Positions 1 to 9,422 of a stretch of 64,000 nucleotides of DNA are shown piece after piece. The DNA comes from Devosia sp. LC5 (GTDB lineage: Bacteria; Pseudomonadota; Alphaproteobacteria; Rhizobiales; Devosiaceae). The stretch is from the NCBI RefSeq assembly GCF_000735585.1, contig NZ_JNNO01000008.1, positions 1 through 64,000 on the forward strand. The letters are read 5' to 3'. A program made the position numbers and the translations under genes. Below the pieces are notes generated by a model. It was not told the DNA's origin. It did no database searches and saw only the letters and a list, made by a program, of their open reading frames with translations. Every line of letters starts with the position of its first letter. The stretch's first letter is position 1.

Positions 1-50
1 GCGCAGCACCCCCACCCTCGGTCCCTCCCCTCGAGGGGGAGGGAGGCGAT
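1..50. repeat. REP-like palindromic intergenic repeat
   Basis: Just beyond the stop of the DUF1989 gene lies a GC-rich imperfect hairpin at 22-45 (CCCTCCCC, loop TCGA, GGGGGAGGG). It is flanked by CCCTCGG and CCGAGGG, which could extend the stem. Read on the minus strand, it resembles the repeat at 62507-62577: a stem of C/T-rich and G/A-rich arms followed by a GGTGGGGG-like tail. No T-run follows, so a classic intrinsic terminator is not clear; it may be a transcript-stabilising REP element. Confidence 0.45.
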
Positions 51-70
51 GGGGCCGAGGGACACGTTGG

Positions 71-679
71 TCATTCCGCATCCCCCGAAATAACCACCTT
101 GATCGGCGTCGGGTTAAACCCGTTGCAGGGGTTGTTCACTTGCGGGCAGTTGGAGATGACGCAGAGGACGTCCATTTCGGCACGCAGTTCGACATGGTCG
201 CCGGGGGCGGAGAGGCCATCGACGATGGTCATCGCTCCGGAGGGGTCGATGGGCACGTTCATGAAGAAGTTGATATTGGGGACGATGTCGCGCTTGCTCA
301 TGCCGTGCCTGGTGACTTCGAGCAGGAAATTGTCGCGGCAGGCGTGGAGATATCTGGTGTCGTGGCCGAAGCGGACAGTATTGCTTTCGCAGGAGCAGGC
401 GCCTGCAGAAGTGTCATGGCGGCCGCAGCTATCGGCCGTCACCACCAGCATGACATTGCCCTCATTGCTGATGATGCGCGTGCCGATGCCGACATAGGCG
501 CTGCCCTGGACACGCAAAGTGTCTTGCCCGCTATAGCGCTCGGAGAAATCACTGGCCTTGTAGAACAGGGTATCGACGGCCTGCTGGCCTTCGCTGTCGA
601 TGATGCGGATGGTCTGGCCCTTGCGGACAATGCCAGACCAGGGCTTTTCGGCGGGGATGAAGTGTTCCTGAGTGCTCAT
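71..679 (-). CDS. DUF1989 urea carboxylase-associated protein 2 (carboxyguanidine deiminase subunit)
   Basis: A 202-residue protein of the DUF1989 family, the type annotated as urea amidolyase-associated protein 2. Family knowledge: the two DUF1989 paralogues next to ykkC-controlled urea carboxylases form a carboxyguanidine deiminase, which turns carboxylated guanidine into allophanate-type products in the cytoplasm. Visible motifs are SCGRHDTSAGACSCES in the middle and NCPQVNNPCNGFNPTP near the C-terminus, cysteine- and histidine-rich as expected for the metal site. ATG at 679 is preferred over an in-frame TTG at 694 because GAGGGG lies just upstream. It begins 11 bases after the paralogue ends, so the two are co-transcribed. 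The guanidine riboswitch at the head of the operon supports guanidine rather than urea as substrate. Which paralogue is CgdA and which CgdB cannot be decided here. Confidence 0.9.
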   Translation of the reverse strand: MSTQEHFIPAEKPWSGIVRKGQTIRIIDSEGQQAVDTLFYKASDFSERYSGQDTLRVQGSAYVGIGTRIISNEGNVMLVVTADSCGRHDTSAGACSCESNTVRFGHDTRYLHACRDNFLLEVTRHGMSKRDIVPNINFFMNVPIDPSGAMTIVDGLSAPGDHVELRAEMDVLCVISNCPQVNNPCNGFNPTPIKVVISGDAE

Positions 680-690
680 CGATGTTCCCC

Positions 691-1488
691 TCAAACCAGC
701 TGCATGGCGTTGTTTTCAAAGCCGCGCGCGGCTTCGGCGGTGGCGGTGCGGCAGAGATCGTCGACAAGCAGGGGCAGGCGGAAGCGGGTGATGGTCACCG
801 GATTGGGTTCATAGGCGGGGTTGGGATCGAGCGGGTGCGGGCAATTGGAGAGGGCGATCACCAGGTCCATCTCGGCGCGCAACTCGACATAGTCGCCGGG
901 CTGGCGCATGTCCTCGCGCCAGACGAAGGTGCCGCCGGCATTGACGCGGACGGGGGCGAAGAAGGTGAGCGCCGAGGGAATGTCGCGACGGTCCAGCCCC
1001 AGCTTGCCGGCGACGAGGACGAAATTGTCGCGCGTATTGCGGGTGTCGCCGGGATAGCGGGCATTGGAGGTGGCGTTAGAGCCACCGACCAGGCCGTCAT
1101 GGGCGGAGGAAGCGGCCTCGGTGACCGAGAACATGACGCGGCCCATGTCTGAGAACAGCACACGGCCCTTGGCGATGGCGGTGGTCCATTGCACTTTGAC
1201 CGTATCGGGCAGGTTGAGGCGCTCGCTGGTGTCGGCAAGGCTCCAGGCGATCATGGCCACGGTCGACGGGCCCTGCTCCTGAGAGATGCGGATGGTCTCG
1301 CCGGCTTTCAGATTAGTGGACCAATACCAGCCGCCGGGAATGGTTTCGGCGTGGATGGGATTGGCAATCGGTGTTGCCGGAATTGCGCTGGGGGCGGGCA
1401 AAGCCTTGGGGGCATTCTGTAGGCCCTTGCGCTGGTGTTCTTCATAGCGCGCGCGGTCGGCGGCGATCTGGTCGGGCGTACGGCTCAT
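691..1488 (-). CDS. DUF1989 urea carboxylase-associated protein 1 (carboxyguanidine deiminase subunit)
   Basis: A 265-residue DUF1989 protein, larger than its partner because of an N-terminal extension with a proline/alanine-rich linker (about residues 25-45). The family core shows GGWYW, TSERLN, SSAHDGLVGGSN, and near the C-terminus NCPHPLDPNPAYEPNP, matching the paralogue's NCPQ-type motif. By family knowledge it pairs with the second DUF1989 protein as a carboxyguanidine deiminase. The start has a good ribosome site (AGGAGA) and overlaps the ATPase stop by 4 bases, so translation is coupled to the transporter. The carboxylase that would supply its substrate is not in the window and is expected to the left. 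Confidence 0.9.
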   Translation of the reverse strand: MSRTPDQIAADRARYEEHQRKGLQNAPKALPAPSAIPATPIANPIHAETIPGGWYWSTNLKAGETIRISQEQGPSTVAMIAWSLADTSERLNLPDTVKVQWTTAIAKGRVLFSDMGRVMFSVTEAASSAHDGLVGGSNATSNARYPGDTRNTRDNFVLVAGKLGLDRRDIPSALTFFAPVRVNAGGTFVWREDMRQPGDYVELRAEMDLVIALSNCPHPLDPNPAYEPNPVTITRFRLPLLVDDLCRTATAEAARGFENNAMQLV

Positions 1489-2312
1489 GGAGTGTCTCCT
1501 TGCGTTGGCGCCAGGTCGTCCTGGACAAGACCCAAGGGCATGACCGGGTCGTCCCGGTCGGGTGCGAAAATGGAGGGCTCGCCGGCAATGCGCGGCGGCC
1601 AGATATCGATGTCGCGGCTGAGCAGGGCGCCGTAGCGCTCCCGCTCCTCGGGGCGGTCGCGCGGGCGCTCGAAGGCGATGACGCGGGTGCCCAGGGTAAA
1701 GGCCTCGCGCATGTCATGGGTAACCATGACGACGGTCAGCTCGGTTTCGTGCCAGAGGCGCTTCATCAGCACATGGATTTCGGCACGGATGCCGGGATCA
1801 AGCGCACCGAACGGCTCGTCGAGCAGCAGCACTTTGGGCTTCATGATCAGCGCCTGGGCGAGGGCGAGGCGCTGTTGCATGCCGCCGGAGAGCTGGGCAG
1901 GATATTTGTCTTCGGAACCGGCCAGGCCCACATCGGCGATGAGCTGGCGGGCTTCCTCGATGGCACTGCGCTTGCTGGCGCCGAACAGGCGGGCGGCGAT
2001 CTTGGAGCCGGTAAAGGCCTTGCCGAGCAGCACATTGCCAAGCACGGTGAGGTGTGGGAACACCGAATAGCGCTGGAAGACGACGCCGCGATCGGGGCCG
2101 GGCTCGGCCACCAGCGGGACGCCATCGAGGGTGATGGTTCCGCGCGTGGGCGCTTCCTCGCCCAGCAGCAGTTTGAGGAAAGTGGTCTTGCCGCACCCGG
2201 AAGGGCCGACCAGGGCGACGAAGGCGCGGGAGGCAATGGTCAGGCTGACCTTTTCCAGTACGATCTGGTCGCCATATTCCTTCCAGACATTGTCGAGAAC
2301 GATAGTGCTCAT
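1485..2312 (-). CDS. ABC transporter ATP-binding protein (nitrate/taurine/guanidine type)
   Basis: A 275-residue ATPase that drives the importer encoded by the two genes upstream. It has Walker A GPSGCGKTT (about residue 38), Q-loop VVFQRYSVFPHLTV, signature LSGGMQQRLALAQAL, Walker B VLLLDEPFGALD and switch THDMREA. This fits the TauB/SsuB/NrtD group. The C-terminal tail after the ATPase core (about 60 residues, with ERPRDRPEE) is longer than in TauB and is typical of ATPases beside urea carboxylase genes. ATG overlaps the permease stop by one base (TGATG) and the stop overlaps the DUF1989 start, so all are one operon. The likely substrate is guanidine, from the riboswitch. Confidence 0.93.
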   Translation of the reverse strand: MSTIVLDNVWKEYGDQIVLEKVSLTIASRAFVALVGPSGCGKTTFLKLLLGEEAPTRGTITLDGVPLVAEPGPDRGVVFQRYSVFPHLTVLGNVLLGKAFTGSKIAARLFGASKRSAIEEARQLIADVGLAGSEDKYPAQLSGGMQQRLALAQALIMKPKVLLLDEPFGALDPGIRAEIHVLMKRLWHETELTVVMVTHDMREAFTLGTRVIAFERPRDRPEERERYGALLSRDIDIWPPRIAGEPSIFAPDRDDPVMPLGLVQDDLAPTQGDTP

Positions 2313-3127
2313 CACTGCCGCTCCAGATTGGACCAGGGGAAGATGGCGATGCGCAGCCGATCGAGCGCAAAATTCATGATGATGGCAAGCAGCGTGATCC
2401 AGGCCACATAGGGGAAGATCACGTCCATCGACAGATACCGGCGGACGAGGAAGATGCGGTAGCCGAGCCCGGAATCGGCCGAGATGGCTTCGGCGGCGAT
2501 GAGGAACAGCCAAGCGGGTCCCAGTTGCAGGCGCAGGCAGGTGAACAGCCGCGGCAGGACCTGCGGTAGCACCACGCGCAGGGCGATCTGCCAGGACGAG
2601 CCGCCCAGCGTTTCGGCCTTGATGATCTGCTCGCGTGGCAGCTCGACCACCTTGAGGGCGAGGTCGCGGATCATGGCCGGGGCGACGCCGATGACGATCA
2701 GCGAGATCTTGGCGGCTTCGCCCAGGCCCAGCACGATGAAGAGAATGGGCAATAGCGCCAGCGGTGGCACCATGGAGATTGTGGCGATGAACGGGGCCAG
2801 TAGCGCTCGGACATAGGGGAACATGCCCACGATCATTCCGAAGAGCAGGGCGATGGCGGTGGAGATGCCCAGCGCCCAGAGCAGGCGGGAGAGGCTGGCC
2901 GTGGTATCGGCCCACATCAGATATTCGCCGGTCCGCGTATCGGGCGTGAAAGCCATGCGGTTGATGGCGTCGGTGAGGCTTGCCAGCGCGGGCAGCAATT
3001 TGTCGCTGGGATTGTCGGCCAGCCGCGCCGCCGAGCCCATGCCATAGGCAATGACCAGCAGCACGAAGGGCGCGAGCATGAGCATCAACCGTACGGCCGG
3101 CCCGGGTTTGGTATTGATCCAACGCAT
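2312..3127 (-). CDS. ABC transporter permease (guanidine/urea carboxylase-linked, TauC family)
   Basis: A 271-residue inner-membrane permease of the BPD_transp_1 family. The N-terminal helix covers about residues 12-32 (LMLMLAPFVLLVIAYG), and further hydrophobic helices follow from residue 75. The EAA-type cytoplasmic loop reads ELPREQIIKAETLGGSS followed by LPQVLPRL, where the ATPase docks. Length and layout match SsuC/TauC permeases. It sits between its binding protein (47 bases upstream with a hairpin between) and ATPase (1-base overlap). Substrate assignment rests on operon context only. Confidence 0.92.
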   Translation of the reverse strand: MRWINTKPGPAVRLMLMLAPFVLLVIAYGMGSAARLADNPSDKLLPALASLTDAINRMAFTPDTRTGEYLMWADTTASLSRLLWALGISTAIALLFGMIVGMFPYVRALLAPFIATISMVPPLALLPILFIVLGLGEAAKISLIVIGVAPAMIRDLALKVVELPREQIIKAETLGGSSWQIALRVVLPQVLPRLFTCLRLQLGPAWLFLIAAEAISADSGLGYRIFLVRRYLSMDVIFPYVAWITLLAIIMNFALDRLRIAIFPWSNLERQ

Positions 3128-3145
3128 GGTGTGGGCTCCGTCTGT

Positions 3146-3166
3146 GGGCCGGCCAGAGGCCGGCCC
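3146..3166 (-). other. Intercistronic hairpin after binding-protein gene
   Basis: A perfect 9-bp stem (GGGCCGGCC, loop AGA, GGCCGGCCC) fills the gap between the binding-protein stop and the permease start. It has no T-run. Such hairpins usually protect the upstream message and lower expression of the membrane genes relative to the binding protein, as in malE-malF; that role is inferred. Confidence 0.6.
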
Positions 3167-3174
3167 GTTCCGGT

Positions 3175-4248
3175 TCAGAGGGCGCCGTCGGCGGCCATGC
3201 TCATGTAGCTGGCGGTGAATCGCAGTTTCACATTGGCGGCGTCGCCCAGCACGGTACCGTCGGGCAGTTCGATGCCGATGACGTCAGCCGAGGGGGCGCC
3301 GGAGCCGAGTAGGCCCTTGTCGAACAGGAAGGTGCGGACGCGCTCCATGGTGGTGGCAAGCTCGGGCGCGGTGGTGAAGGCGACGGCCTCTGCTGGCGTG
3401 GGGAACAGCTTGGTGGCGGCGAGCTGGGCCTCGAAACCGGCTTGGTCGGTGCCCGAGGCAACGCCCATAGCCTGCCGTGCGGCGGCGCCTTCCGGCGTGT
3501 CGGCGCTCATGACAGCCATGGTGTCATACCAGATGCCGACCAGCGCCTTGCCGAAATCGGGATTGGCCGCGAGCACGTCGGTATTGGCGACCATCAGGTC
3601 GATGATTTCGCCGGGAATGTCGGCGCTGTTGAACACATTAGTGGCGTCAGGCAAAGCGAGGATTTCGGAAACCATGGGGTTCCAGGTGACCATGGCGGTA
3701 ACGTCCGGCGTCTGGAAGGCGCCGACCATGTCGGGGTCGGAAGTGTTGACCACGTTGACGTCGCGTTCGCTCATTCCGGCGCTTTCAAGTGCCCGGGCGA
3801 GCAGGTAATGCGATACGGAGAATTCGACGAGATTGACCGGCTGCCCCTTGATGGCGGCCAGCTCGGTCTCGTCCTTGAGGATGACGGCGTCATTGCCGTT
3901 GGAGAAGTCGCCGATAATGACTGCGGTGGTGTCGACGCCGCCGGCAGCAGGAATGGAGAGGCCATCCATATTGGTGAGGGTCACCGCGTCATAGGCGCCG
4001 GCGGTGTATTGGTTCATCGACTCCACATAGTCGTTGAACTGGGTCACCTCGATAGTGATGCCGTATTTGTCGGCCCATTTCTGCACGATGCCATTGTCGG
4101 CGGCGTAGCCCCAGGGCATCCAGCCGACATAGATCGACCAGGCGACCTTGAAATCGGTCTTGGCTTGAGCGAGAGCGGGCAGCGTTGCGCCGAAACCCAG
4201 TGTCGAAGCCAGCAATGCCGTAACGAGAAATTTGGACAGTTTCGTCAT
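3175..4248 (-). CDS. Periplasmic substrate-binding protein of the guanidine-linked ABC importer
   Basis: A 357-residue binding protein with a Sec signal peptide (KLSKFLVTALLASTLGFGA, cleavage expected after ALAQA). The mature part starts KTDFKVAWSIYVGWMPWGYA, characteristic of the binding proteins encoded in urea carboxylase regions (NMT1/TauA-like fold). The reading frame is open upstream, but ATG at 4248 has an AGGGGA ribosome site and directly precedes the signal peptide; the region before it is the riboswitch leader. It is first in the operon, so its expression responds most directly to the sigma-54 promoter, riboswitch and terminator. Guanidine as ligand is inferred from that control. 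Confidence 0.92.
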   Translation of the reverse strand: MTKLSKFLVTALLASTLGFGATLPALAQAKTDFKVAWSIYVGWMPWGYAADNGIVQKWADKYGITIEVTQFNDYVESMNQYTAGAYDAVTLTNMDGLSIPAAGGVDTTAVIIGDFSNGNDAVILKDETELAAIKGQPVNLVEFSVSHYLLARALESAGMSERDVNVVNTSDPDMVGAFQTPDVTAMVTWNPMVSEILALPDATNVFNSADIPGEIIDLMVANTDVLAANPDFGKALVGIWYDTMAVMSADTPEGAAARQAMGVASGTDQAGFEAQLAATKLFPTPAEAVAFTTAPELATTMERVRTFLFDKGLLGSGAPSADVIGIELPDGTVLGDAANVKLRFTASYMSMAADGAL

Positions 4249-4271
4249 GTCAGATCCCCTTTGCGTAGTCA

Positions 4272-4308
4272 CAAAAAGGGATCGGCAGAAACCATCGAGC
4301 CAATCCCT
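4272..4308 (-). terminator. Intrinsic terminator in the riboswitch expression platform
   Basis: On the minus strand a 10-bp stem (AGGGATTGGC paired with GCCGATCCCT, one G-U pair) with a 12-base loop is followed by a run of five T. It lies immediately 3' of the riboswitch aptamer and about 25 bases before the binding-protein start. Guanidine-I switches commonly act by preventing termination when ligand binds, so this is read as the off-state terminator. Confidence 0.85.
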
Positions 4309-4311
4309 TGG

Positions 4312-4420
4312 CTTACGAGGTCTCCCGGGCTTTTGTCCCGCCGTGTCCGGCACGATTGCTCCCGTGCCGGCGGGTGGCTCTCGGACCAGACACGTCACCA
4401 CGACGCCGGAACCCTAGCAC
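4312..4420 (-). ncRNA. Guanidine-I (ykkC/yxkD) riboswitch
   Basis: The leader on the minus strand carries the conserved blocks of the ykkC class in the right order: CTAGGGTTCCG at the 5' end, GGTCCGAGAG in the middle, then ACACGGCGGGA and AAAAGCCCGGGAGA at the 3' end. Between them is a variable GC-rich hairpin (GCCGGCACG, GCAAT, CGTGCCGG). It is followed by a terminator hairpin and lies just downstream of a predicted transcription start near 4428. By family knowledge, guanidinium binding stabilises the aptamer and lets transcription continue. The genes it controls fit guanidine import and breakdown. Confidence 0.95.
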
Positions 4421-4438
4421 CCAACTCGCCAGACATGA

Positions 4439-4454
4439 TGCAAGGCACGTGCCA
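4439..4454 (-). promoter_or_regulatory. Sigma-54 (-24/-12) promoter of the guanidine operon
   Basis: The minus strand reads TGGCACGTGCCTTGCA, an exact match to the RpoN consensus TGGCAC-N5-TTGCA with the GG and GC dinucleotides 10 bases apart. The predicted start, 12 bases after the -12 C, is near 4428, only about 8 bases before the riboswitch. This implies nitrogen-status control through sigma-54 and an NtrC-type activator. Confidence 0.85.
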
Positions 4455-4526
4455 AGTGTTTCTGGCCTGATATTGGGGGATTCTGAGCCGGTTCTGCTGG
4501 TCTGGCGGCTAGAACATCGGCTTGCT

Positions 4527-4552
4527 GCACACCGATTGGGCAGGTGGTGTGC
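4527..4552. promoter_or_regulatory. Inverted repeat, candidate enhancer site for the sigma-54 promoter
   Basis: GCACACC and GGTGTGC form a perfect 7-bp inverted repeat with a 12-base spacer, roughly 100-125 bases upstream of the predicted sigma-54 start. Its left part, TGCAC-N7-GGGCA, resembles the NtrC dyad TGCAC-N7-GTGCA with one mismatch. Position and sequence fit an upstream activator site; binding by NtrC is inferred. Confidence 0.45.
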
Positions 4553-4600
4553 GGTCGGCGATATTCTTGGCAATAGTGTCGGCCCGCAACAATTGTCCTG

Positions 4601-5047
4601 CTAAGGCCAGGGATAGCCAGCCGTAGCAATGCCTTGTTGGGTGAGGGTTTCGACCAGTTTGCGCCTATAGGAGACGACGTCGCCAATGGACTTCGTGCGC
4701 AGCGTACTGACCTCGACCCCCGTGAAGGGCACGAAATCAGCAGGCACGGATGCGCCGCCCCAATTGTCCATGATGTAGTTGAGCACTGCCGCGATTTCGT
4801 TATCGGACAGGCTGGCGCCGATCACGCCGGGCACATGCATCAGATAGGTACGGCCGGTTTCATCGCGGGTAAAGGCGCCCACCAGGTTGCGAAAATCGGG
4901 GATGCCGCCCACCGGATGGCCCGATCCATCCATGGCATGGCACCCCGCGCAACGCAGGACGTAATTGGCATGGGGCGAGCGCTCCTGCCCGGCTGCGGGC
5001 GTCGCCGCCAGCAAGCCGAGCAAGGCAAGGGCGCGCAGAGATTTCAT
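4601..5047 (-). CDS. Mono-heme c-type cytochrome (second of the amine dehydrogenase cluster)
   Basis: A 148-residue exported cytochrome c. It has a Sec signal peptide (RALALLGLLAATPAAGQ), one heme-binding CAGCH near residue 33, and a likely distal methionine around residue 70 (LMHVPG). The fold resembles class I cytochromes c used in the periplasm. It overlaps the preceding cytochrome gene by 4 bases (ATGA), so it is the last gene of the amine dehydrogenase operon. A role in carrying electrons from the TTQ enzyme towards the oxidase is inferred; the long C-terminal tail (about 45 residues) has no motif I recognise. Confidence 0.85.
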   Translation of the reverse strand: MKSLRALALLGLLAATPAAGQERSPHANYVLRCAGCHAMDGSGHPVGGIPDFRNLVGAFTRDETGRTYLMHVPGVIGASLSDNEIAAVLNYIMDNWGGASVPADFVPFTGVEVSTLRTKSIGDVVSYRRKLVETLTQQGIATAGYPWP

Positions 5048-5487
5048 TGGCTACCCTTGCGCATCGCCCGCAATTCAGCGTGGCTGGGCACTGCCGCGCG
5101 TAGTTCGGCGACCAGCGCGGCATCGACCGAAGGCGGCAGGCCATTGATATCGGCCAGCAGATAATTGGCGATGGCGACGATTTCCTCATCGCCCAGCCAA
5201 TTATGCGTCGGCATGGCAAGACCCACATAGGTCTGCCCGGCGGCTTCGATCTTGCCGGTGAGCCCGCTCAGGATCACCCCGGTCAGATAGCGCCCGCTTT
5301 GATCGCCCAGGGTCTGCCACAATGCCGCGTCGTTGAGCGGTGGCGCCAGCCCGGGCGAGCCGCTGCCATCGGCCATGTGGCAGGCGCCGCAGGTGTCGGC
5401 GAAGGCTGTCTGCCCCGCCGCATCCTGCCCATGGGCAGGCGCGGCGAGCAGTACAAGCGCCAGCGTCGCGACTAGGCCTTTACGCAT
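5044..5487 (-). CDS. Mono-heme c-type cytochrome (first of the amine dehydrogenase cluster)
   Basis: A 147-residue exported cytochrome c with signal peptide MRKGLVATLALVLLAAPAHG, heme motif CGACH near residue 33, and a candidate axial methionine in GLAMPTHNW. It starts 8 bases inside the end of the light-chain gene and overlaps the next cytochrome, so both are co-translated with the dehydrogenase. In classical methylamine clusters this position holds the cupredoxin amicyanin; here a cytochrome c probably accepts electrons directly. ATG at 5487 is preferred to the upstream TTG at 5493. Confidence 0.85.
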   Translation of the reverse strand: MRKGLVATLALVLLAAPAHGQDAAGQTAFADTCGACHMADGSGSPGLAPPLNDAALWQTLGDQSGRYLTGVILSGLTGKIEAAGQTYVGLAMPTHNWLGDEEIVAIANYLLADINGLPPSVDAALVAELRAAVPSHAELRAMRKGSQ

Positions 5488-6019
5488 CGGCAAGTCCGAC
5501 CAGCACGGCTACCGTGCAGTGATAGCCCTTGGAATCATTGGCCATGCACCAGTTGATGTCGTTGTAGAGACCCATGCGATAGCCGGGGCGCTCGCCTTCG
5601 GAGGTGAAGCAGAACGAGCCGGCGCAGGTCGCCTTGCCGCAGCAATCATTGTAGGAGACGAGATAGTCCTTCTCGTCATTGGGATTGCGGCAGGTGCCCA
5701 CCCAGGAGACCTTGGACGCTTCCGAGCCCGGCGGGCATTGGTTGAGCGTGCCGCCGCACTCGTTGCAGAGATTGCCGTCCAGCGCACAGTAGCGCCAGTA
5801 ATCGCAGGAGGTCTGGTCGCCGTCGGGAGAGGCGCCCTCTTGCGCAAAGGCTTGGCCGAAATTGCGATCGAAGGGCAGCATGGGCAAGAGGCTTCCCCCC
5901 AGCATGGCGGCGCCCGCCTTGGTCAGAAAGCTCCGCCGGCCAGTGCCCTGGGCGATGCGGCGGCTGCTCTTTTCGGCACCCCGGTCGAGCCATTCAAAGA
6001 TAGTGTCGATCATTGCCAT
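5480..6019 (-). CDS. mauA: TTQ amine dehydrogenase light (small) subunit, aromatic amine dehydrogenase-like
   Basis: A 179-residue quinoprotein subunit carrying tryptophan tryptophylquinone. A twin-arginine signal (GRRSFLTKAGAAMLGGS) precedes the mature domain with 12 cysteines, enough for the six disulfides of the family. The TTQ-forming tryptophans are in SCDYWRYC and NDINWCMAN. It oxidises primary amines to aldehyde plus ammonia in the periplasm. The stretches RNPNDEKDYLVSYNDCCGK, ERPGY, NWCMAN and VLVGLA look closer to aromatic amine dehydrogenase (AauA) than to methylamine dehydrogenase, which I remember as having WCFGA and IVGKA at the equivalent places; an alignment should settle this. 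MauE and MauD genes upstream serve its disulfide formation and maturation. Confidence 0.93.
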   Translation of the reverse strand: MAMIDTIFEWLDRGAEKSSRRIAQGTGRRSFLTKAGAAMLGGSLLPMLPFDRNFGQAFAQEGASPDGDQTSCDYWRYCALDGNLCNECGGTLNQCPPGSEASKVSWVGTCRNPNDEKDYLVSYNDCCGKATCAGSFCFTSEGERPGYRMGLYNDINWCMANDSKGYHCTVAVLVGLADA

Positions 6020-6039
6020 TGAAGGTACTCCTTAGGGGC

Positions 6040-6645
6040 TCAGCTATTGGCGGGGGCAGGGCTGTCGAGAAAGCTCTGGATCGAGTCGACGCCCATTTCC
6101 TTGGCGTTGAACAGGCTTTCCAACTGCTCGCGATTGTTGACCAGGCCCTTGGCGCGGATGATGCCGCGATTGTCGAGCAGTACGGCAAAGGGCAGGCGGG
6201 AGACGCGATAGGACACGCCCAGATCGCTCGACACCACATAGGGGAAGCTGGCAAGATCCGCCGTTTCGATGAAGCGCTGATGCTTGGCCACGTCGCCATC
6301 GCTGGCCAGCACCACGTCGAGCCACTTGTCTTCCGCCTGTCGCACCGAGCGCAGGATGGGCAGGAGCTTCTTGCAGACCGGGCAGGTAGGCGAGAGGAAG
6401 AACACCAGCGTCGAACGGTCGGGCCGCGGACCGATCGCCACAGTGCCGCCCGTCAGGCTGGGCAGGCTGAACAGCGGGGTCATATCGCCGATGCGCGGAC
6501 CGGCGTCATTGACCAGCGCGCCCATGGGCGAGACGCGTTCATAGAGCACGCCAATCTGGCGGGCCATGGCGAACAGCGCGACGATAAGGCAGAGCACGAC
6601 GACCCAGAGGACGCCAACTGCGAGGATGAGTGCATTCATTTCCAT
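6040..6645 (-). CDS. mauD: MauD-like thioredoxin-fold protein for amine dehydrogenase maturation
   Basis: A 201-residue membrane-anchored thioredoxin-fold protein. It has an N-terminal helix (ALILAVGVLWVVVLCLIVAL) and a periplasmic domain with the redox motif CPVC in FLSPTCPVCKKLLPIL. MauD is needed for correct disulfides in the cysteine-rich light chain encoded next. Later conserved parts include LPFAVLLD with the cis-proline region. ATG at 6645 is chosen with AAGGA four bases upstream; ATG at 6639 is nearly as good. The frame is open further upstream through the MauE gene, but that is overlap, not coding. Confidence 0.92.
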   Translation of the reverse strand: MEMNALILAVGVLWVVVLCLIVALFAMARQIGVLYERVSPMGALVNDAGPRIGDMTPLFSLPSLTGGTVAIGPRPDRSTLVFFLSPTCPVCKKLLPILRSVRQAEDKWLDVVLASDGDVAKHQRFIETADLASFPYVVSSDLGVSYRVSRLPFAVLLDNRGIIRAKGLVNNREQLESLFNAKEMGVDSIQSFLDSPAPANS

Positions 6646-6662
6646 TGTCCTTTTCTCGCGCT

Positions 6663-7193
6663 TCAGCGCCGCAGCCGCATGACGGCGGTGGTGGCCATGA
6701 TCTGTTCGATCAGCAGATAGCCCACCCACAGGATAAAGCCGCTGACCAGCGCGGCCGCTGCCTCGCTGAGCGAGAGTGCATAGGGTGAGCCGACGAGGCA
6801 CAGTGCGGCAATGGCGGCGAGCACGCCATTGCGTCCCACCAATTGCCAGCCCAGTGGCTGCACCGCGCCGCCACAGCCGCATTCGATGCGGTCCCGGCCC
6901 CGATTGATGTTGATGCCCATGCCGGCCGCATAGAGCCCGAGCAGGGCAATGGCGAGCAGGGCGCCAGCCACATTGCCGCCCGGCGTGAGCAGCACGACGA
7001 CCACCAGGACCTCGAGGCCCACCAGCGCCATCGCGACAAGGTTTACCCGGCCAGCGGGCATCAGGTCATAGTCGGCAACGAAGCCGGTGAACGCGGTGAA
7101 GTCGGAGAGCTTGTGCCAGGCCGCCCGGGCGAACAGCAGGGCGATGAACGCCGTTGCTGTCGCCGCGACCAGGCTTGTCCACGCCGCCTCCAT
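6663..7193 (-). CDS. mauE: MauE/DoxX-like membrane protein for amine dehydrogenase maturation
   Basis: A 176-residue integral membrane protein of the MauE family with about four to five helices (residues 8-28, 50-75, 80-95, 115-135, 140-160). The conserved cysteine cluster ECGCGG sits in the loop after GININRGRDRI. MauE works with MauD in making the light chain. The ATG overlaps the heavy-chain stop by one base (TGATG); a GTG 3 bases upstream is possible. Order heavy chain-MauE-MauD-light chain matches both mau and aau clusters. Confidence 0.92.
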   Translation of the reverse strand: MEAAWTSLVAATATAFIALLFARAAWHKLSDFTAFTGFVADYDLMPAGRVNLVAMALVGLEVLVVVVLLTPGGNVAGALLAIALLGLYAAGMGININRGRDRIECGCGGAVQPLGWQLVGRNGVLAAIAALCLVGSPYALSLSEAAAALVSGFILWVGYLLIEQIMATTAVMRLRR

Positions 7194-8347
7194 CACGGAC
7201 CTGCCACGACAACGGTGGCAAAGCCGGTACCATCGCCCGAACCGGTTTCCTTGAGCGCAAACCTGGCATCCGGATCAACGGCATAGCGCACGACTGTGCC
7301 CTCTTCCTCGTTGAGGCCGAACAGCACCGGTGTTTCCCCATCGGTGACCTTGATCGAGATCAGGCCGTGTGCCGGAGATTGATAGAGCGCCTTGCGACCC
7401 GCCACGTCATAGGCCCAGATTTCCTCGGACGCATTCTTGTGGCTGCCATCATAGGCTTCGGCATGCATGGTCACGAACAGCACGCCATTGGCATCGTTGT
7501 AGCTAAGCAGATTGTAGCCGCCCGGCGCCCAGCCTTCCGGCTGGCCCTCGGTGATTGAGAACTTGTCGGTCGAGGTGATGGTGCCGGTCGTATCCGACAG
7601 CAGATAAACATTGCCGTTATACGAGATGAAGGCCAAGTCGCTGCCGATGCGGTCGGACGCGATAAAGATCGGGTCGGTATCGGCGTCGAAGATTTTCTCG
7701 CTGATGGTCTTTTCGGCCGCGGCGCCATCGGTGCCAACATCAAAGCTGGCAAAGGTGCCGTCACCGCAGATGGACGAGAAGCTGTGGCCCTCGAGCGAGG
7801 GGTAAATGCCCCAGCAACCCGGCGTCGCCACTTCCTGCACCACGCTGCCGGCCGCCACATCCACCACGGTCACCGAGGTCGCCGGCGTCGCATTCTGAAC
7901 ATAGACGAACTTGCCATCGGCGCTTTGCGCGAGCAGGGGTTCATACGCCGCCACCATGGCGGCCTTGCCAGGCAGCAGGATTTCCTTGGTGATCGAGAGC
8001 GTGTTCACGTCGTAGACGTTGAGCACCTGTTCGATCGGGCCATAGGTATAGCGCTTCATGAAAGTCGATTGCGCATAGGCCGTCTTGCCATCGGGCGCGA
8101 CCAGCAGCTGGATGATGCCGCCAGCGGTCATATTGCCTTTGTTGGTCAGGTCATCGGCCGAGTAGACCTCGATCGAGCTGGCGCCGCCCCATTCCTGCTT
8201 ACCCACGAAAATATTGGGCCCCGGCTCGATGGCTTCCTTCACCGAGAACGTCTCGGGGACGAATTCGGCCTCCTGCGCCATCAAGGGAAAGGTCAGCATG
8301 GTGGCGCAGCACAGCGCGCTGGCGGCAAGCAGCTTGGGTTTGATCAT
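7193..8347 (-). CDS. mauB: TTQ amine dehydrogenase heavy (large) subunit
   Basis: A 384-residue exported seven-bladed propeller subunit. The signal peptide is KLLAASALCCATMLTFPLMA with cleavage near AQEAE. Propeller-type repeats are visible, for example VYSADD, LLVAPDGKTAYAQST, LAQSADGKFVYVQNAT and GIYPSLEGHSF, and the C-terminal part contains WAPGGYNLLSYND and LFVTMHAEAYDGSHKN. It pairs with the TTQ light chain and shapes the substrate channel. ATG at 8347 follows GGAG with 9-base spacing; an in-frame TTG at 8362 is less likely. It is first in the operon, divergent from the AraC regulator. Substrate (methylamine or an aromatic amine) cannot be read from this chain by eye. Confidence 0.92.
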   Translation of the reverse strand: MIKPKLLAASALCCATMLTFPLMAQEAEFVPETFSVKEAIEPGPNIFVGKQEWGGASSIEVYSADDLTNKGNMTAGGIIQLLVAPDGKTAYAQSTFMKRYTYGPIEQVLNVYDVNTLSITKEILLPGKAAMVAAYEPLLAQSADGKFVYVQNATPATSVTVVDVAAGSVVQEVATPGCWGIYPSLEGHSFSSICGDGTFASFDVGTDGAAAEKTISEKIFDADTDPIFIASDRIGSDLAFISYNGNVYLLSDTTGTITSTDKFSITEGQPEGWAPGGYNLLSYNDANGVLFVTMHAEAYDGSHKNASEEIWAYDVAGRKALYQSPAHGLISIKVTDGETPVLFGLNEEEGTVVRYAVDPDARFALKETGSGDGTGFATVVVAGP

Positions 8348-8504
8348 GCCATGGGTCTCCAATCGTCGGAGGCCAGACTAGGAAGACGTCATGTCCCCGG
8401 CTATCCACTCCAAGTCGATTGAATGACTAATTTATAGGCAATTGCACTGGTTGCTCAGTCTATGCGCGCCTGCTACGGATAGTGCGCAGCCTATAGCGAT
8501 CATC

Positions 8505-9422
8505 ATGACCAAAGCCTTCGCCGCTGAATTTTTCGACGCCACCGAACAGGAAACCGCCTTGCCCGGCTGGGAGCAGCGCTTCGTGCAACTGGCGTCGAAG
8601 CGCTATCATGGGCGGGTCGATTATCTGGTGATGCCGGGCATTTCGGTGATGCGCGAACGCGTCAACACTACCATCGCCCAAACCATCATGACGCCCAGGG
8701 ACAGCGTCACCTTCGCCTTCACCGTCAACGACGATGCGCATTGGCAGATCAATGCGATGCCCCTGCGTGGTGTCACCTGCAGCGTCATCACTGGCGGGCT
8801 GGAATGGGTCGCCGTTTGCCCAGGCGGCTATGACATTGTGCTCGTCACCATGCGCGCTGACCAGCTCGGCTGGGAGGTGCAGCCCGGTTTCAATGTTCTA
8901 TCGGGCCCTGCGATGAAGGCGTGCCTGCATTGGCTGCTCGGTCTGTTGCCCAATGCGGCAGGACCGGCGGCATCGGCCGGCGAATTGACCGAACTACTGC
9001 CCGAAATCCTTATCGAGCAACTCGCCGGTCTCTACTTCAACTCCACCCAACTGGCATGGCCCGGACCCGGCACCAGCCCGGATTATTCCGCCTTCAGGCG
9101 CCTGCAAGGCTGCATGTGCGGGGAAGGGGATGTGCCCCTGTCGATTACCGCGCTCGCCGCCGCCACCGGCATGACGCACCAATCGCTACACGAGACGGTG
9201 CGTAACACCTTGGGCATCAACGCCAGTGTGTGGCTCAAGCAATTGCGCCTCGACGGCGCCCGCCGCGATCTGCTGCAGGCCGGGCGCACCGGCCGCACTG
9301 TTTCGGAAATCGCCCTGCAATGGCGATTCTGGCATCTGGGCCGCTTCGCCAAATATTACAGCGCCCAATTCCACGAGACGCCGTCGGAGACATTGCGGGG
9401 CACAAGGATGGTGCGAGCCTAG
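8505..9422 (+). CDS. AraC-family transcriptional regulator
   Basis: About 305 residues, with a C-terminal AraC/XylS double helix-turn-helix (roughly residues 205-300): SITALAAATGMTHQSLHETV, then LGINASVWLKQLRLDGARRDL and VSEIALQWRFWHLGRFAKYY. The N-terminal 190 residues form a sensory domain of the EutR-like type (FFDATEQETALPGWEQRFVQL). It is divergent from the amine dehydrogenase operon with about 160 bases between, so it is the likely activator responding to the amine. The start is uncertain: ATG at 8505 lacks a strong ribosome site, and an in-frame TTG at 8442 exists. Confidence 0.85.
   Translation: MTKAFAAEFFDATEQETALPGWEQRFVQLASKRYHGRVDYLVMPGISVMRERVNTTIAQTIMTPRDSVTFAFTVNDDAHWQINAMPLRGVTCSVITGGLEWVAVCPGGYDIVLVTMRADQLGWEVQPGFNVLSGPAMKACLHWLLGLLPNAAGPAASAGELTELLPEILIEQLAGLYFNSTQLAWPGPGTSPDYSAFRRLQGCMCGEGDVPLSITALAAATGMTHQSLHETVRNTLGINASVWLKQLRLDGARRDLLQAGRTGRTVSEIALQWRFWHLGRFAKYYSAQFHETPSETLRGTRMVRA

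Follow-up and report, generated by a model that had tools for sequence, protein, structure and literature searches.

Guanidine-I (ykkC) riboswitches are described in the literature as ON elements whose ligand is guanidine. Aptamers of this family (Rfam RF00442) lie before operons that, in the part of PMC12186494 available to us, are now read as encoding a guanidine carboxylase, an importer and a carboxyguanidine deaminase. The locus analysed here resembles the systems described there in its aptamer, its importer, its pair of deiminase genes, the carboxylase (in relatives) and a downstream guanidine-II aptamer. It differs from them in that transcription is predicted to start on the opening base of an outer helix, P0, and in that the expression platform looks translational.

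The other closely similar systems are the promoters of the NtrC/sigma-54 regulon, such as those of glnK, glnA and genes for urea or nitrate uptake, with which the locus shares a -24/-12 element, a TGC-N11-GCA sequence about 100 bp upstream and nitrogen-scavenging genes. Unlike those promoters, this one is followed directly after the predicted start by a ligand-sensing RNA, which would add a substrate-specific signal to the general nitrogen one. An in silico sigma-54 regulon of Pseudomonadota published in 2025 lists, in the part accessible to us, the ABC transporter families COG0715, COG0600 and COG1116 together with COG3665 as sigma-54-regulated, and 59% of the 102 COG3665 genes are annotated 'urea carboxylase' (PMC12316311); the strings guanid* and ykkC have no occurrence in the accessible main text of that paper. 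In Burkholderia cenocepacia H111 the operon I35_7283-7286, annotated as a urea carboxylase with its ABC transporter, was NtrC-dependent under nitrogen limitation (PMC5491218), a likeness to the present operon that is one of names and not of sequences. It was interpreted as an operon for urea use, and guanid* has no occurrence in the part of that paper at hand. Likewise, 'RpoN' and 'NtrC' have no occurrence in the accessible parts of PMC12186494 and PMC11410670 among the matches listed, and among the matches listed from the open-licence literature, none of the papers connects guanidine riboswitches to sigma-54 or NtrC. Both halves of the arrangement are known, then, and part of the sigma-54 half has already been published, as far as the accessible part of PMC12316311 goes. 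The new parts are the conserved coupling, the position of P0 at the start site and a corrected platform. The coupling connects work on guanidine riboswitches and carboxylase with work on nitrogen control by NtrC and sigma-54, two fields that stay separate in the papers searched.

The guanidine operon of Devosia sp. LC5

Devosia sp. LC5 is a soil bacterium. The window, a stretch of 64,000 nucleotides forming positions 1 to 64,000 of contig NZ_JNNO01000008.1, carries on its minus strand, in 5′ to 3′ order, an NtrC-type box, a sigma-54 promoter, a guanidine-I aptamer, a set of competing hairpins that form the platform (4324-4253) and, at 4248, the ATG of an ABC substrate-binding protein gene. The operon continues with genes for a permease, an ATPase, UAAP1 and UAAP2 (Table 1), and the contig ends at base 1. 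The nearest match of the substrate-binding protein was from Devosia (94%), and UAAP1 is a carboxyguanidine deiminase subunit according to the literature. The guanidine-I aptamer is thus upstream of genes for guanidine transport and degradation (TIGR03427 binding protein, UAAP1, UAAP2). In two named relatives the gene after UAAP2 is annotated as a urea carboxylase; the contig of the window stops before that point.

Table 1. Positions of the regulatory elements and genes in the window
Feature	Positions	Strand	Basis
TGC-N11-GCA enhancer box of NtrC type (centre near -106 relative to the predicted start)	4526..4542	-	exact sequence match
Sigma-54 -24/-12 promoter TGGCAC-N5-TTGCA	4439..4454	-	TGGCAC 4454-4449, TTGCA 4443-4439
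P0 5′ strand CGAG with predicted start (about 4428)	4425..4428	-	12 bases after -12 C; duplex test
Guanidine-I (ykkC) riboswitch aptamer	4320..4428	-	RF00442, 83.9 bits, cut-off 63, E 1.7e-13, full length 1-107
P0 3′ strand CUCG, in linker	4316..4319	-	pairs with 4428-4425
Hairpin A (proposed ligand-free form), GAGACCUCG...GGUUUC	4288..4324	-	folding, -18.2 kcal/mol
Hairpin B ('terminator' of the sequence-only reading; probable anti-sequestering helix)	4276..4309	-	-18.5 kcal/mol
Hairpin C, 3′ arm of B with Shine-Dalgarno region	4253..4283	-	-15.9 kcal/mol
Shine-Dalgarno AAGGGG of the substrate-binding protein gene	4256..4261	-	7 bases before ATG at 4248
Periplasmic substrate-binding protein, guanidine ('urea carboxylase-related') ABC importer	3175..4248	-	TIGR03427, 544 bits, cut-off 334
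ABC permease	2312..3127	-	NCBIfam matches under cut-off, best TauC
ABC ATPase	1485..2315	-	ABC ATPase matches under equivalog cut-offs; frame sits within a longer listed ORF
Guanidine-II (mini-ykkC) aptamer, just before UAAP1 start	1511..1560	-	RF01068, 41 bits, cut-off 32
UAAP1	691..1488	-	TIGR03425, 256 bits, cut-off 206
UAAP2, second deiminase subunit	71..694	-	TIGR03424, 332.5 bits, cut-off 285

Directly upstream of this locus is a methylamine-dehydrogenase-like cluster (4601-8362, minus strand), whose large and small subunit matches were under the curated cut-offs and in which two small genes look c-type cytochrome-like by eye. The cluster may act on a different amine. A gene for an AraC-type regulator is found beside the cluster (8442-9422, plus strand).

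The sigma-54 promoter and the aptamer in the window

The sigma-54 consensus is YTGGCACG-N4-TTGCW, and the promoter in the window matches it at 13 of 13 letters. The pattern TGGCAYRNNNNTTGCW had 8 occurrences in the 4.2-Mb genome (both strands) as against 2 for the same pattern written backwards, so that a chance site exactly at this position is very unlikely. The genome contains one rpoN. The aptamer, 4428-4320, is the sole RF00442 match in the genome. A sequence-only reading of the window had named an exact -24/-12 promoter and a ykkC aptamer, and both were borne out, the promoter by its consensus letters and its conserved position in relatives, and the aptamer by the Rfam model search, which gave a full-length match with the conserved core.

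The last base of the promoter is ten bases before the aptamer, and 11 bases lie between the -12 C (4440) and the start of the model match. Transcription is therefore predicted to start at about 4428. This position opens the Rfam match and precedes the first P1 pair by six bases; the start had earlier been put about 8 bases before the aptamer, close to this prediction.

Exact sigma-54 sites with an upstream TGC-N11-GCA were also seen at two other places in the genome (G000:C11:12008, L227; G000:C14:14541, L230), before genes that by eye are ABC transporter-like. They possibly mark further nitrogen-starvation genes of this genome.

Conservation of the promoter and aptamer in relatives

The pairing was followed through 397 Hyphomicrobiales genomes, which gave 122 RF00442 matches; the 92 over the cut-off were counted and the 30 below it were left out. 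A sigma-54 site was scored as placed if it had at least 9 of 13 letters, the pattern GG-N10-GC, and a -12 C separated from the start of the model match by 5-16 bases; since the filter demanded GG-N10-GC, those four letters are conserved by design. A placed site was found at 79 of the 92 aptamers, compared with 0-3 of 92 when the same rule was applied to windows shifted by 200-800 bases. Sites with at least 11 of 13 letters were present from -60 to +10 around the aptamer start in 73/92 cases, compared with 0-3/92 for same-sized windows 200-800 bases upstream on either strand and an average of 0.15 sites in shuffled sequences. The 79 units with a site represented 20 of the 21 families, 35 of the 40 genera and 67 of the 77 genomes; in 37 of these units exactly 12 bases lay in between. 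Named relatives of the binding protein likewise had the site in 71 of 80 cases. The pairing of a sigma-54 promoter with a guanidine-I riboswitch is common to many related bacteria and is not peculiar to the window.

In other alphaproteobacteria, a site with at least 11 of 13 letters was found within 16 bases in 20 of 30 aptamers (controls 0/30). None of 40 aptamers from other classes of Pseudomonadota had a site that close, whereas 36 of them had one 34-84 bases upstream. These 36 came from 24 of 27 genomes and 13 families sampled, the controls giving 0-2/40 and shuffles 0.16; at one locus there was a second site at 194. The class set left out a truncated match (G977:C347:1-102) and matches under the cut-off. 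Caballeronia sp. NK8 (Burkholderiaceae), for example, has a guanidine-I aptamer with a 12/13 sigma-54 site 34 bases upstream. There are therefore two architectures, with the site near the aptamer in alphaproteobacteria and 34-84 bases upstream in the other classes. In the other-class loci (L263-L336) a leader of roughly 20-70 bases precedes the aptamer.

These counts bear on the possibility that the sigma-54 match is incidental, the operon being read from the methylamine-dehydrogenase-like genes or from a sigma-70 promoter, so that the riboswitch alone matters. The upstream gene is on the same strand and stops at 4601, roughly 150 bp short of the promoter, which would allow such read-through. 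No sigma-70-like site was found, however, in positions 1-9000, although the scan relied on an E. coli-type consensus, and the placement of the promoter is conserved even where the upstream gene differs (Rhizobium sp. BT03). We consider an incidental match very improbable.

Aptamers without the promoter

In the 13 aptamers of the order set that were scored as misses, the first gene by tblastn was of UAAP type in five, a binding protein in four and neither in four, compared with 65 binding-protein and 6 UAAP genes in the 79 units with a site. rpoN was over the cut-off in 12 of the 13 genomes, and is in pieces in the thirteenth. Two of the misses have particular features: the contig of L014 ends just downstream of the aptamer, and L018 has an 11/13 site 39 bases away. 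Among the named loci, nine were without a site (L039, L045, L073, L097, L099, L104, L106, L107 and L111); eight have Rhodobacterales-type names and L045 is Allorhizobium borbori. A pattern search found no aptamer core in L106.

Rhodobacteraceae keep the riboswitch without a sigma-54 site, as seen in 3/3 sampled aptamers and in seven named loci with Rfam-confirmed aptamers. In four genomes of family f60, which we infer to be Rhodobacteraceae, rpoN was over the cut-off in 0/4: two genomes gave no match, a third a short fragment, and the fourth a pair of sub-threshold copies, the better of which scored 275 against 277 bits. Loss of the promoter thus goes roughly, but not strictly, with loss of rpoN in this family.

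The NtrC-type box and the activator

NtrC boxes are expected about 100 bp upstream of a start, and an exact TGC-N11-GCA is found at that distance in the window and also in Devosia sp. A8/3-2. When the spacing was varied, TGC-Nx-GCA upstream of the promoters was enriched only at x = 11, with 31/79 units in the order set and 36/71 among the named loci, compared with 3-15 and 0-19 at other spacings, and the positions formed clusters spaced by about one turn of the helix. With no motif set beforehand, a palindrome search gave TGCccAaaattTggGCA at a width of 17, widths of 16 and 18 fitting much worse; it was this search and the three-letter spacing test that gave the box, a four-letter dyad search having yielded a diffuse signal only. 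In other classes the box was weakly enriched (10/36 compared with 2-7). The same sequence, TGC-N11-GCA, is the NtrC motif in Sinorhizobium according to the accessible part of PMC10746234. An upstream inverted repeat, GCACACC-N12-GGTGTGC, was dropped as a candidate; its right half overlaps the box.

As a positive control we used glnK-amtB loci. TGC-N11-GCA was present before 12 of the 23 loci with a PII gene, compared with 0-5 at other spacings; a further 37 of the 60 amtB loci, in which the script found no PII gene, were excluded from this count. Few clear -24/-12 sites were seen upstream of glnK-amtB, and the control therefore supports the box alone. In the Devosia sp. LC5 genome TGCACATTTTTTGTGCA lies about 660 bases before the amtB match, in the expected place of glnK; the script found no PII gene before that match.

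The genome has an ntrC (TIGR01818, 673 bits, cut-off 559), one of six strong sigma-54 activator matches that also include ntrX and flbD. The first input might consequently be something other than general nitrogen status, if sigma-54 works here with NtrX, FlbD or one of the three remaining activators instead of NtrC. The box in the window scores 15.6, and the 99th percentile of a 300-bp null is 15.8, so that by itself it is suggestive and not proof; moreover the exact box, present in 39-51% of units, is missing from 49-61%. Against another activator are the enrichment of the same box before glnK-amtB, the NtrC dependence of the like-named B. cenocepacia operon, and the contig of the window, which carries none of the genome's PF00158 matches. 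In RNA-seq of the H111 ntrC mutant under nitrogen limitation the 'urea carboxylase' gene I35_7286 changed by log2 -6.0, and the 'urea carboxylase-related' genes I35_7283 and I35_7285 are entered as 'na(m)', not applicable owing to the read number in the mutant (accessible part of PMC5491218). Caballeronia sp. NK8 has the same gene order as this operon. We think it improbable that the activator is another protein, and NtrC is the putative one, predicted to bind upstream of the window promoter and to activate it.

The predicted start site and the outer helix P0

The bases at the predicted start can pair with the linker that follows the aptamer, as CGAG with CUCG in the window and as GUGCAG or GUGCGG with CUGCAC and CCGCAC in other families. 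In 99 distinct alphaproteobacterial units the energy of this P0 duplex was -4.78 for cognate partners and -3.33 (sd 0.19) for permuted ones, giving a z of -7.7, a value that overstates the certainty because related sequences are not independent. Changes on both strands are plain across the units, and the duplex test did not detect P0 in family f2 and in some units of family f34. As the alphaproteobacterial promoter would make the first transcribed base the first base of P0, the choice of start site appears to be part of the riboswitch.

The expression platform

Hairpin A of the platform uses the last conserved bases of the aptamer (GGGAGA) and competes with hairpin B, in which 4309-4299 pairs with 4286-4276 to give a GC-rich stem of 10-11 bp with a loop of about 12, accompanied by T5 at 4277-4273. 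A simple terminator scan did not list hairpin B, which fits the loop limit of 3-8 in that scan. In 66 distinct related leaders the U-run was 0-3 in 17, 4 in 15 and at least 5 in 34; the T-run of hairpin B is thus not conserved in relatives with the same platform.

The complementarity between the 3′ arm of hairpin B and the Shine-Dalgarno region was retained in most leaders. For 62 leaders the pairing energy was -12.2 with the cognate partner and -11.5 (sd 0.19) with permuted ones, a value reached in 0 of 2000 permutations; in two Rhodovulum loci (L099, L111), for instance, the arm is CUUUCC and the Shine-Dalgarno region GGAAAG. The pairing was weak in L031, L097 and L153 (-4.0 to -5.9 kcal/mol as cut there). 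The length of the U-run correlated with that of the A-run before the Shine-Dalgarno sequence (r 0.64, a crude measure over 66 leaders, in which L096 was omitted and L048, L097 and L111, where the pattern did not work, were given an A-run of 0), as pairing predicts. Helix B itself showed no covariation, 1870 of 2000 permutations reaching the cognate value.

Summed folding energies were compared in 71 leaders. With the aptamer bases free, A and C together lay below B in all 71, and with those bases held, B lay below a shortened A plus C in 63. For the window, B (-18.5) is disfavoured at equilibrium against the short A plus C (-22.8) when the bases are held, and wins only before the Shine-Dalgarno sequence is made. 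At that earlier stage in the free state, A beats B in 13 of the 71 leaders, the mean difference being 0.75 kcal/mol the other way, and the window values are -18.2 for A and -18.5 for B. The free state must therefore rely on early-made arms of A or on C, and a translational model, which was worked out on type-1 leaders, leans on the order of folding. A cruder fold, in which Shine-Dalgarno exposure was computed once including the 3′ aptamer bases and once omitting them, gave 44 rises and 5 falls in type 1 (n 80) and 13 rises and 5 falls in type 2 (n 33; means 0.26 and 0.28), with no change in the window (0.01 and 0.01); it is a weak measure, as some start codons were wrong (in-frame ATG inside the platform).

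The sequence-only reading had described hairpin B as a 10-bp terminator with a T5 tail. Hairpin and T5 are both present, and if B were a true intrinsic terminator prevented by guanidine, both inputs would act on transcription. The GC-rich stem in the window, the 34 leaders with at least 5 T, and the description of guanidine-I switches that permit transcription only with guanidine (Nature 2024; accessible part of PMC11410670) are all in keeping with this. The 17 leaders with runs of 0-3 include, however, three from Devosia or the same genus (L031, L036, L153), the covariation is between the anti-Shine-Dalgarno arm and its target, and B falls in the guanidine-bound state in most leaders (63/71), so that as a terminator it would turn the importer off with guanidine, the wrong sign. 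A terminator as the main model was accordingly set aside, since relatives lost the T-run and most kept the Shine-Dalgarno complementarity, and we regard it as unlikely. Hairpin B is probably not a terminator; judged from the modelled folds, it is most simply the ON-state helix that would free the Shine-Dalgarno sequence, and a translational ON switch fits better than a terminator, with window folding energies that are ambiguous. The 4272-4454 extent of the sequence-only reading holds the promoter, the aptamer and hairpin B, and omits the box at 4542-4526 and the stretch to 4253 that the switch probably needs.

Probable two-input control of guanidine use

Taken together, the elements suggest the following course of events. 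Under nitrogen limitation, phosphorylated NtrC would bind the 4542-4526 box and fire the sigma-54 promoter, and the transcript would begin at about 4428, its first bases forming the 5′ strand of the P0 helix that closes the aptamer. Without guanidine, the last aptamer bases would be taken up in hairpin A and the 3′ arm of B would pair with the Shine-Dalgarno sequence as hairpin C, leaving the importer untranslated. With guanidine, the aptamer would keep its last bases, A would be lost, and B would form and take the anti-Shine-Dalgarno arm, so that translation could proceed. The guanidine-II switch before UAAP1 would provide a second guanidine check. The expected outcome is expression that requires both nitrogen hunger and guanidine.

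We judge it likely that NtrC/sigma-54 transcription and a guanidine-I translational switch together form a two-input control for guanidine as a nitrogen source, and the importer and breakdown proteins are probably made only when nitrogen is needed and guanidine is present. For Devosia sp. LC5, comparison with relatives gives good support to a predicted AND gate of nitrogen hunger and guanidine. The AND gate of the sequence-only reading had placed both inputs on transcription by way of a terminator. Its two inputs agree with the conserved spacing, the NtrC-type box, the gene content and the like-named NtrC-dependent operon; a gate that combines transcription (nitrogen) with translation (guanidine) is more likely than the purely transcriptional form.

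On balance we also favour a wider reading, in which Pseudomonadota as a whole would typically control guanidine assimilation through a sigma-54/NtrC promoter with a guanidine-I riboswitch. This unit would exist in two forms, one in alphaproteobacteria with transcription beginning on the first base of P0 and one in other classes with the promoter 34-84 bases upstream, and would combine nitrogen at initiation with substrate at translation as a widespread AND gate. If this is true, most guanidine-I switches of Pseudomonadota would respond to guanidine only in cells that lack nitrogen, with consequences for the way in which guanidine use, the effects of fertiliser and waste water, and riboswitch reporters are tested. 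It also suggests that genes entered as 'urea carboxylase' in older NtrC regulons belong to guanidine use, and would provide a naturally conserved two-layer AND gate that is testable with simple reporters.

Guanidine-II aptamers and possible separate control of importer and enzymes

In the window, the ABC ATPase gene (stop 1485) contains the guanidine-II aptamer within its coding sequence, and its end overlaps the UAAP1 start (1488). Guanidine-II was present in 20 of 24 related loci scanned, and in 15 of these 20 the ATPase frame also extends past the aptamer; in Caballeronia the aptamer is placed before the carboxylase instead. The order guanidine-I then guanidine-II has already been described for the enterobacteria Raoultella, Erwinia and Klebsiella (accessible part of PMC12186494).

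The guanidine-I aptamers L018, L115, L125, L130 and probably L015 are before UAAP-type genes and have no placed sigma-54 site. In two of these genomes, G193 and G034, a second aptamer ahead of the importer has the promoter. Importer and enzymes therefore seem to be separately controlled in these two genomes. Genome G179, of the same genus as the window, has two more sigma-54/guanidine-I units (L031, L153) before genes that by eye are of other ABC types; the usual importer is not downstream of them, and they have no U-tract.
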